Assembly (NCBI GenBank): GCA_012267505.1 | Contig: JAAXGI010000268.1 | Location: 4,351 to 40,577 of the forward strand | Length of the DNA stretch: 36,227 bases | Origin: Gemmatimonadota bacterium | GTDB taxonomy: Bacteria > Gemmatimonadota > Gemmatimonadetes > Longimicrobiales > Gaopeijiaceae | Reading direction: 5' to 3' | Part shown: piece after piece, positions 20,899-24,192 of the stretch | How positions within the stretch are numbered: position 1 is the stretch's first letter | Layout: every line of letters begins with the position of its first letter | Made by a program: the position numbers and the translations under genes | The notes under the pieces: generated by a model | Seen by the model: the letters and a program-made list of their open reading frames with translations, nothing else | Database searches by the model: none | Told to the model about the DNA's origin: nothing

Positions 20899-21528
20899 CT
20901 ACATCCCTTGGCGCTTCCTGCGGTAGTCCCGCATGTCGAGGCACTGGTCGTAGAGCGCTCGGTCGATGCTGATCCAGTCGGTCTTGTTGATCCCCCTGTG
21001 ATTGCGGGCTGCGGGGCTGTGGGGGAAGGCACTCGCGATCTTGATCCAGCGACGTTGTTCCCGCGCGATTGCCCGGATCTCCTCGGCCACCTCCGAAAGA
21101 TCCTGATCCTGGCTGAAGACGAGCGCCACGTCGTATTCGCGGCGGTGGGCGAGCGCGATCCGCACGTCGATCCCTTTCTCTTCGCCGGTCAGAAAGGAGT
21201 GTTGCGTGCCGTCTGGGAGATTCACCCGGCGGATGCGGTATCGAAGAGGCCTGCTGTACACGACGACGCCCCGCCGTCCCATCGCCGCGAGCTTGTTGGT
21301 CCAGAAGGAGTGCCACCTGGGGTTGTCGCCGACATCGGGGATTCCGGTAAAAAAGCGGACCTGCGTCAGTTTCCATCCCTGCCGCGCGCAAACCTCCTGC
21401 TCGGCGAGCACGGTGACGTCGTAGTTGGGGTACGTGTAGCCGAAAGCCTCGCGCTCGCGGGTGGCATGGAAGAGGTTCTGGCCGTCCACGAAGGCGACAG
21501 CACGCTTGACGGGAGGCTCCCCGCTCAT
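20899..21528 (-). CDS. NYN domain (PIN-like) nuclease, LabA/DUF88 type
   Basis: A 209-residue predicted metal-dependent RNase of the NYN/PIN-like fold. KRAVAFVDGQNLF supplies Asp15 and the conserved Asn, KGIDVRIALA gives Asp121, and VFSQDQDLSEVAEEI gives Asp141 and Asp143, so the acidic cluster is complete. The middle (FFTGIPDVGDNPRW...KLAAMGRRGVVVYSRPLRYR) follows the LabA-type pattern. ATG at 21528 was chosen because homology starts a few residues later. Unusually, the ATG lies only eleven bases after a U7 tract with a strong upstream hairpin. NYN proteins are found in RNA processing and in toxin or defence neighbourhoods; here the neighbours are toxin-antitoxin and nucleotide-sulfur relics. 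Its target is unknown. Confidence 0.85.
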   Translation of the reverse strand: MSGEPPVKRAVAFVDGQNLFHATREREAFGYTYPNYDVTVLAEQEVCARQGWKLTQVRFFTGIPDVGDNPRWHSFWTNKLAAMGRRGVVVYSRPLRYRIRRVNLPDGTQHSFLTGEEKGIDVRIALAHRREYDVALVFSQDQDLSEVAEEIRAIAREQRRWIKIASAFPHSPAARNHRGINKTDWISIDRALYDQCLDMRDYRRKRQGM

Positions 21529-21539
21529 TGACCGATGCG

Positions 21540-21583
21540 AAAAAAATAACCCCGCCCGAGGCCTCTCGGCGTGTCGAGCGGGG
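21540..21583 (-). terminator. Intrinsic-terminator-like hairpin with U7 immediately before the NYN start
   Basis: Read on the minus strand: CCCCGCTCGA, a 14-base loop, then TCGGGCGGGG (10 pairs including one G-U), then TTA and seven T. The plus-strand arms are 21550-21559 and 21574-21583; the T run is 21540-21546. The loop can add a CCGAG/CTCGG alternative pairing. No minus-strand gene lies close upstream, so it may act as a leader attenuator of the NYN gene, or terminate readthrough. Confidence 0.7.
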
Positions 21584-21600
21584 AGCAAGTATACGTAACA

Positions 21601-21628
21601 ATACTACGCCGCCCCGGGCAGCCGTCAA
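21601..21628 (-). promoter_or_regulatory. Candidate promoter for the NYN gene
   Basis: On the minus strand TTGACG (21623-21628) and TAGTAT (21601-21606) are 16 bases apart. A start site some seven bases on would place the hairpin 21540-21583 within the first tens of transcribed bases, ahead of the ATG at 21528. Confidence 0.45.
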
Positions 21629-21756: not shown

Positions 21757-22044
21757 GTGTCTTCCATCCTTCCCACCCTCGCGAATCCGCCGCATCCTCC
21801 ACCAGAGATTTCCTCCAGGTGGAGCGACCACGAGCACCTCCCGCATGTGCTCAAGTTCTCCGGTGGTCGGGCTTCAGCGACGTTGGCCTTCCTGCTTGCC
21901 GGGGGCGGCCTCCTCCGCCCGGAGCGCGGCGATGTGATCCTGTTCGCACGCACTTCAGCCGAACATCCGGCGATCTACAACTTCGCAACGGAAGCAGATA
22001 CGCCACTGCGCATTGATCCGCATGCCGTGTCGACCGGGGGGTGA
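21757..22044 (+). pseudogene. PAPS reductase/adenine-nucleotide alpha-hydrolase-like gene, truncated
   Basis: The N-terminal 80 or so codons encode HVLKFSGGRASATLAFLLA followed by GLLRPERGDVILFARTSAEHPAIY. This is the start of a PAPS-reductase-like ATP pyrophosphatase: SGG-x-x-S/A-x-A is the P-loop, and the N/R-T-S-A-E-H-P-A-T/I-Y block is characteristic of the accessory-genome subgroup. Homology stops at about FATEADTPLR, and a stop follows at 22042-22044, so the sulfate-donor and C-terminal domains (normally a further 200 or more residues) are missing. The start (GTG 21757) has no clear ribosome site. Related proteins occur in phage and defence contexts, DndC of phosphorothioation being one distant relative. 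This copy is a relic. Confidence 0.65.
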
Positions 22045-22653: not shown

Positions 22654-23922
22654 TCAGGAGAGGGTGAGCATCACGGCGTGATCACGCCAGCTCGTGTTCC
22701 CGTAGCCCCTCTCGTTCTCGACCCGGTCGCGCGGCTGCGTGTTCCCGGCGACATCCGTCGCCCTGCTCACGAGCAGGTGTCGTCCGGCAGGCAGCGTCAT
22801 GGCCGCTACGAAGGGCCGCCACGCATACGGGCCCAGATCCGGTCCGACCAACCGTGCCTCATCCCAGCTCCGGCCCCGGTTCACCGATACTTCCACGCGG
22901 CGGACCGCTCGCGCGCCGCCGAACGCGACCCCGTGCACGACGACCGGCCCCGCCCGCTGGACCGTCGCGTCCGCCCCGGAAGGGTGGTTGATCCAGGACT
23001 TCACGCTCATCTCCCACATGGTCGGCTGGCCTGGAGCTCCCTCCTCCCCCACCGCGCGCAGCCGGTAGCCGGTCCGCATGATCGCGGCCGCACTCTCCCT
23101 CCGCGTGAAGGCGAGCCGCGCCAGATACTTCACCTGGTTGATGCCGAAGTACCCGGGCACGACGAGCCGAAGCGGGCCGCCATGCACGAGCGGTAGAGGC
23201 TCGCCGTTCATCTCCCAGGCCAGGAGCGCATCGGTCATCCCCTTCTCGAGGGGGATCGACCGCTCGACGACCGCATCGTCACGGTCGAGTCCCGCGGGGA
23301 TCGCCTCCCCGCCCGTTCCCGTCGTGAACCGCGCACCCGGATCGACGCCGCCCAGCGCTTCCGCCACGCTCCGTACCGGGACTCCGCTCCATACGACGCA
23401 GCCCGCCGCCCCCACACCCCACTGCGACCCGCCCGCGCCGTGCGGGAAGAAGATCCGGCCGTTTCCCGAGCACTGGAGCACGGCCGCAACCGTCTCGACC
23501 CCGAGCGTCTTCAGCTCCCGGAGGGTGAGTGTGCGCGGGTTCCTCACACCGTCGACCGCCAGCTGCCATCCGTCCCGGTCCTCCACGACCGAAGCGTCGG
23601 GCGTCGGAAGATTGCTTCGGACGAAGAGTCGTTCGTAGGGAACGATCCCGCTCGTGCCGAAGGCCTCCCGCCTTGTCTCGAATTCGAGCGGGGAGTGCCG
23701 TATGAATGCCTCGGGGTCCTTCCCCGCCGGCAGAACCAGCTCCTCCGGGGGGGAAGTTCCGGGTCCGAGCGGGCTCTGGACCTCGCTGCAGCCCGGGATC
23801 GCGATGGCCGCCGCACCCAGGCCGAGTCGCCTGACGAACTCCCGCCGGCTGATATGGGGCGACCCTGCGCCGGCCTCCTGCCGGCGGGACCACCGCGCGG
23901 GCGGGATGACCGGATCAGGCAC
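22654..23922 (-). CDS. Sulfite oxidase-family molybdopterin enzyme, Tat-exported
   Basis: A roughly 422-residue periplasmic oxidoreductase. The leader contains the Tat motif SRREF (25-29) and a hydrophobic run ending IPGC, a possible lipobox, so it may be a Tat lipoprotein. The molybdenum-ligand cysteine is Cys151 in LQCSGNGR, followed by W-G-x-G-A-A-G and LVHGGPLRLVVPGYFGINQVKYL, the pterin-binding stretch of the sulfite oxidase fold. The second half has the dimerisation domain (VHGVAFGGARAVRRVEVSVNRGRSWDEARL). It resembles SorA/SoxC-type enzymes, but no cytochrome subunit gene is adjacent. The start is uncertain: GTG 23922 gives a normal Tat leader, while ATG 24045, preceded by AGGAAG, would add 41 residues. 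It is separated from the tamB gene by about 270 bases. Confidence 0.88.
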   Translation of the reverse strand: MPDPVIPPARWSRRQEAGAGSPHISRREFVRRLGLGAAAIAIPGCSEVQSPLGPGTSPPEELVLPAGKDPEAFIRHSPLEFETRREAFGTSGIVPYERLFVRSNLPTPDASVVEDRDGWQLAVDGVRNPRTLTLRELKTLGVETVAAVLQCSGNGRIFFPHGAGGSQWGVGAAGCVVWSGVPVRSVAEALGGVDPGARFTTGTGGEAIPAGLDRDDAVVERSIPLEKGMTDALLAWEMNGEPLPLVHGGPLRLVVPGYFGINQVKYLARLAFTRRESAAAIMRTGYRLRAVGEEGAPGQPTMWEMSVKSWINHPSGADATVQRAGPVVVHGVAFGGARAVRRVEVSVNRGRSWDEARLVGPDLGPYAWRPFVAAMTLPAGRHLLVSRATDVAGNTQPRDRVENERGYGNTSWRDHAVMLTLS

Positions 23923-24192
23923 CGGGCGACCGGGTCCGGAACGTGAACGACCGAGCGGTCGTGGTGGCCGGACCGCCCCGGACCGCTCCCGGGCGTCCGG
24001 GAGCGCGGGCCGGGTCGCCGGTAGAGCCGCGGGATGAACGTCCATGCTTCCTGACCGGCTCCCCACCGAAGTCGAAGAACAGACCTCCGCTCCCTTCCGT
24101 GCATTGGGACGCGCCCAGGCCGCGGCACCCGCGCGAACGACTCAGAACCCTGCGGGCATCCCCCGGGCCATCGGCCGGAGGGCCGGCCCGCC

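Follow-up and report, generated by a model that had tools for sequence, protein, structure and literature searches.

A self-terminating hairpin RNA conserved across more than 20 bacterial phyla upstream of NYN nuclease genes: a candidate RNA-protein toxin-antitoxin module

Type III toxin-antitoxin systems (ToxIN, CptIN and TenpIN) have antitoxin RNAs that are tandem repeats. The locus described here, a hairpin RNA followed by an NYN nuclease gene, shares with these systems one promoter, a small structured RNA, an intrinsic terminator and a single RNase gene, together with mobility and the lack of a protein antitoxin. As in type III loci, a terminator (hairpin and U-tract) precedes the nuclease gene. 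The two arrangements differ in the nuclease, which is NYN/PIN-like here (best PDB match 2qip) instead of having the ToxN fold, in the usual presence of one hairpin instead of tandem repeats, and in that the candidate antitoxin and the terminator are the same hairpin. Because both tandem repeats and the ToxN fold are absent, the locus is not type III by definition; by analogy, the hairpin-NYN pair may work like such a system.

The AbiF system of C. difficile offers a second comparison. There, a promoter, the RCd22 ncRNA and a terminator precede the toxin gene, which is expressed by read-through, and the protein is bound by the ncRNA and neutralised, in cis as well as in trans (PMC12373285). The present locus resembles it in that the gene for a toxic protein (predicted to be toxic in the case of NYN) is preceded by a conserved ncRNA equipped with a promoter and a terminator of its own. 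In place of an NYN nuclease, the AbiF system has an Abi_2/AbiD-F protein linked to Cas13, and its abiF-motif RNA is longer (about 100-130 nt), contains two motifs and has its terminator as a separate element. Among proteins, the nearest named family is PADLOC HEC-09, a candidate NYN defence gene whose strong members lack the hairpin. VPA0982 (PDB 2qip) has the NYN fold in common at 19% identity, and we know of no RNA partner for it.

The window, the whole 36,227-nt stretch of Gemmatimonadota DNA that was analyzed, carries the NYN (PIN-like) nuclease gene (209 aa) on the minus strand at 20899..21528, as identified by homolog alignment, Pfam and fold. An earlier note on this DNA had placed a promoter, a 10-bp hairpin and a U7 tract just ahead of this gene, and all of them were recovered on the minus strand between 21628 and 21540. 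A motif scan and the upstream regions of homologous loci point to a sigma-70-type promoter, TTGACG-16-TAGTAT (21601..21628), with the -35 element TTGACG at 21628-21623, a 16-nt spacer and the -10 element TAGTAT at 21606-21601. It matches 9 of 12 consensus positions, is the only such match in 4.5 kb (0.3 expected), and predicts a transcription start at about 21590-21594. As the note had also said, there is no minus-strand gene just upstream: the next plausible one, encoding a molybdopterin oxidoreductase (22654-24066), is more than 1 kb away.

The conserved hairpin RNA, about 50 nt long, occupies 21540..21590 of the minus strand and was delimited by its match to a covariance model (R1, 78 bits), covariation and sharp conservation boundaries. 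Read from 21590 to 21540, its order is ACUUGCU-CCCCGCUCGA-CAC-GCC-GAGA-GGC-C-UCGGGCGGGG-UUA-UUUUUUU. The 5′ arm CCCCGCUCGA (21574..21583) pairs with the 3′ arm UCGGGCGGGG (21550..21559) in a 10-bp outer stem defined by fold and covariation. A CAC/C asymmetric internal loop follows, then an inner stem of three base pairs (GCC/GGC) capped by a GAGA tetraloop. The U7 tract found by a pattern scan (21540..21546) completes an intrinsic terminator, and an 11-nt spacer separates its end at 21540 from the NYN ATG at 21528. The hairpin folds with a minimum free energy of -25.9 kcal/mol (z -3.3), a stability equalled by none of 200 shuffles. By itself, the terminator-pattern scan was not significant for the window (1 found, 2.1 expected); we count the hairpin as real because it is conserved, being found genome-wide by R1 at an E-value of 1.7e-16 and present at 79 of 80 homologous NYN genes. 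We also considered whether the 5′ arm (21586-21576), which is complementary over 11 nt to the start-codon region (21526-21516), might form a start-sequestering switch; the complementarity does not hold in close relatives (L005, for one) and was rejected as chance.

Conservation upstream of homologous genes, which the earlier note had proposed as a check, was assessed in 80 homologous NYN loci from more than 20 phyla, obtained by a protein-relative search, by reading 130 nt upstream of each start codon. R1 was built from an alignment of 54 of these upstream hairpins, and it matched directly upstream of NYN in 79 of the 80 loci, including 26 of the 27 that lay outside model building. The sole locus with no detectable copy was L060, whose NYN is 60% identical. 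In the most diverged locus, L095 (NYN 49% identical), the match scored only 15.7 bits, and the same architecture was present with a different stem sequence. Within the alignment, 96.7% of pair cells were paired and six helix pairs showed compensatory changes on both sides. Double-change cells numbered 45 versus 11.2 in shuffles, and covariation was 0.289 versus 0.146; none of 500 shuffles was as high by either measure, and slid registers collapsed. One hairpin per locus was the norm, with possible degenerate second copies only in L024 and L076. Separately, L075 has a second hairpin copy (2001-2054) upstream of a gene that by eye is AbiEi/DUF6088-like, just before its hairpin-NYN unit.

The boundaries of the conserved unit are sharp. 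Information content, near zero upstream, rises abruptly to 1.9 bits at an A that lies seven bases 5′ of the stem. Most positions in the flanking ends, the stem arms and UUAU carry 1-1.9 bits, and values just outside are below 0.3. The stem arms and GGGG-UUAU stay high, and information drops past the U-tract. Upstream of the hairpins, promoter scores had a median of 9.7 bits versus 4.5 in shuffles, with 84% of regions scoring at least 7 bits versus 12% of shuffles, and the -10 element mostly ended 6-10 nt ahead of the first conserved A. This spacing, together with the sharp boundary, predicts that transcription begins at the first conserved base or immediately ahead of it, so that the conserved motif corresponds to the terminated transcript. 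Thus, as judged by comparative sequence analysis, the conserved unit is a discrete terminated RNA of about 50 nt. The earlier note would have been contradicted by an unconserved structure or by a start downstream of the hairpin; the structure proved to be conserved, and the start set by the promoter coincides with the first conserved base.

An ordinary terminator, not specifically recognised and serving to hold NYN expression down, would account for the strength of the hairpin and U-tract. We regard this as very improbable, since unpaired bases (the 5′ A in 97% of aligned loci, the U three bases on in 100% and UUAU in 91-100%) are conserved beyond what a terminator needs, and the conservation of the internal loop over more than 20 phyla likewise exceeds such a requirement.

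The layout had been read in the earlier note as built-in attenuation of a potentially toxic RNase. That part of the claim in which a promoter-hairpin-terminator leader acts as a restraint is supported, whereas classical attenuation is not well supported. Only about 7 nt separate the stem from the point at which conservation and the predicted transcript begin, and no alternative anti-terminator structure was found upstream; because these few nucleotides leave no space for an anti-terminator, classical or ligand-type attenuation is unlikely. The anatomy suits a discrete small RNA that acts on the nuclease in a type III-like manner at least as well as it suits a cis leader.

The main rival explanation is autoregulation in cis, in which NYN would bind or cleave the terminator in its own leader to set its expression and the released RNA would have no function. 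The constant cis arrangement of hairpin and gene is consistent with it, as are the terminator formed by the hairpin and U-tract and an internal loop whose conservation could reflect recognition by the nuclease. The distance from hairpin to start codon, however, varies from about 5 to 80 nt across loci, a further hairpin or terminator precedes the NYN gene in some of them, and in loci where the U-tract is weak (L030 and L072, for example) the hairpin and the UUAU that follows it persist. Weak U-tracts with a retained hairpin, the lack of room for an anti-terminator and the variable start distance together suggest that the RNA itself is recognised, and we consider cis autoregulation possible but doubtful. 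Conservation as such does not tell an inhibitor RNA apart from a protein-bound hairpin used only for feedback.

Our preferred reading, to which we assign a probability of roughly 0.55, is based on these sequence comparisons: the hairpin and the nuclease would form a mobile two-part module in which the single hairpin serves both as terminator and as NYN-binding inhibitor. One promoter would transcribe the hairpin RNA and the NYN ribonuclease; most transcripts would end at the U-tract, releasing the small RNA, and occasional read-through would yield NYN mRNA. NYN would recognise the stem with its conserved asymmetric internal loop, the 5′ A-Y-Y-U and the 3′ UUAU, and would stay inactive while bound. 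Loss of the short-lived RNA, for instance upon phage transcription shut-off, would free the RNase. Binding of the hairpin by NYN, inhibition of NYN, toxicity of the RNase and a role in defence are what we infer from the pattern of conservation. Alternatively, the hairpin RNA could be a substrate or an activating cofactor of NYN (a processed RNA directed at another target) and not an inhibitor. Such a role would suit a discrete RNA whose partner comes from a family of RNases; a guide-like variable segment is absent and the whole RNA is conserved, and we find this alternative improbable.

The chance is about even that the inhibitor module represents a new toxin-antitoxin or phage-defence family, composed of an NYN/PIN-like RNase and a neutralising, self-terminating hairpin RNA of about 50 nt and spread horizontally over more than 20 phyla. 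If so, the PIN/NYN fold would join the few kinds of toxin held by RNA, and the inhibitor would be a very small RNA, with one hairpin being transcript, terminator and inhibitor together. No Rfam 15 family matched at gathering threshold in the window or in the hairpin of 18 related loci, and no described NYN-RNA pairing was found in Rfam or in the literature covered (mostly open-access journal papers). R1 is a ready model of an RNA family new to Rfam, with which further hairpin RNAs can be found, and the NYN subfamily, a relative of the uncharacterised defence candidate HEC-09, gains in the hairpin a likely RNA partner.

All 62 aligned NYN homologs match Pfam NYN (PF01936; best 1.1e-15), the window copy weakly and below the curated cut-off. 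The AlphaFold model has a pLDDT of 89, and the best solved structural match is the NYN-type protein VPA0982 (PDB 2qip). The window NYN retains the Asp/Glu motifs DGQN, EKGID and DQD. It has also lost five residues in frame (DVIAL, after RIAL), including an Asp that over 90% of homologs share, and carries insertions of two and one residues relative to them. Judging from the alignment, the five-residue loss may impair its activity. The protein is mostly constrained (omega 0.15 versus L005), and purifying selection was seen on NYN wherever dS was measurable (omega 0.03-0.23).

HEC-09 was matched by all 62 homologs, weakly (best 2.2e-17); the window NYN matched PDLC04163 at 1.5e-11 over 156 of 203 positions, whereas strong members match at 1e-40 to 1e-58. 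No hairpin accompanies such strong HEC-09 proteins in the same phylum as the window. The weaker match, and the lack of the RNA in true members, suggest that the hairpin-bearing NYNs are a sister subfamily. An NYN of 44% identity was also without the hairpin, as were LabA-type NYNs except in L176/L177, and by these comparisons the hairpin marks one NYN subfamily near-exclusively. In L176/L177, the hairpin (1430-1481) lies ahead of a LabA-type NYN from a different subfamily, one in which related proteins have no hairpin; this may be a partner swap or a chance neighbour.

Loss of the two parts is uneven. Among 298 genomes of the window's phylum, an RNA search found 22 hairpins in 18 genomes, and a protein search found seven intact close NYNs and NYN remnants in five genomes, all with the hairpin. 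About ten hairpins in this phylum had no recognisable NYN, and several of these orphans were followed by only the first 10-20 NYN codons and then by unrelated DNA. In Omnitrophota (the phylum of L026), an intact NYN follows 8 of the 14 matches that score 42 bits or more. With one possible exception, no intact close NYN lacking the hairpin was found. The NYN is thus rarely seen without the RNA, and the RNA commonly lacks an NYN, a pattern that would be expected of a nuclease unsafe on its own. Part of the orphan excess is accounted for by target size, a 50-nt RNA surviving by chance more readily than a 630-nt gene, and by relic status: by sequence, hairpins without NYN look like relics. Constraint on them was not supported, since in one orthologous pair the hairpin diverges no slower than its flanks. 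In L138 (downstream of 1550), an HTH antitoxin gene that by eye is HigA-like comes after an orphan hairpin that has no NYN.

The hairpin-NYN unit is distributed patchily over more than 20 bacterial phyla, including mobile contexts. The NYN protein tree crosses phyla (34 label changes, minimum 20) and the gene is mostly absent from close relatives of the window's genome; the pair thus appears to travel as a unit. RNA distances are correlated with protein distances (Mantel rho 0.34; 0 of 1000 permutations as high). Comparative sequence data show co-inheritance, as they do the RNA unit, its boundaries, structure and promoter, and its near-exclusive pairing with this NYN subfamily. No match was found in phage records, and one relative, with hairpin, is on a plasmid. 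Across lineages, no neighbouring protein family was kept within 3 kb, and no conserved protein partner for NYN was found there. The window neighbours are housekeeping-like (TamB, Omp85, molybdopterin oxidoreductase and M28 peptidase), which fits a passenger unit.

In several sponge-associated bins, the unit has as its divergent upstream neighbour a gene with a PAPS-reductase-like motif (LKFSGGR), seen in the window (21757-22044, plus strand) and in the upstream flanks of L005-L011 and L019; the window copy looks truncated and has no Pfam match. NYN proteins are identical or near-identical between Gammaproteobacteria-titled records and the window's own family (L007, L010 and L019 versus L126 and L127), and some of these submitter titles are probably wrong. 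In the Brevundimonas loci L033, L050 and L051, the unit is immediately 5′ of a gene identified by eye as purA (adenylosuccinate synthetase). In six alphaproteobacterial, sphingomonad-like loci (L034, L087, L088, L091, L092 and L094), it adjoins a phage/gene-transfer-agent-like portal gene, mostly directly upstream of it.
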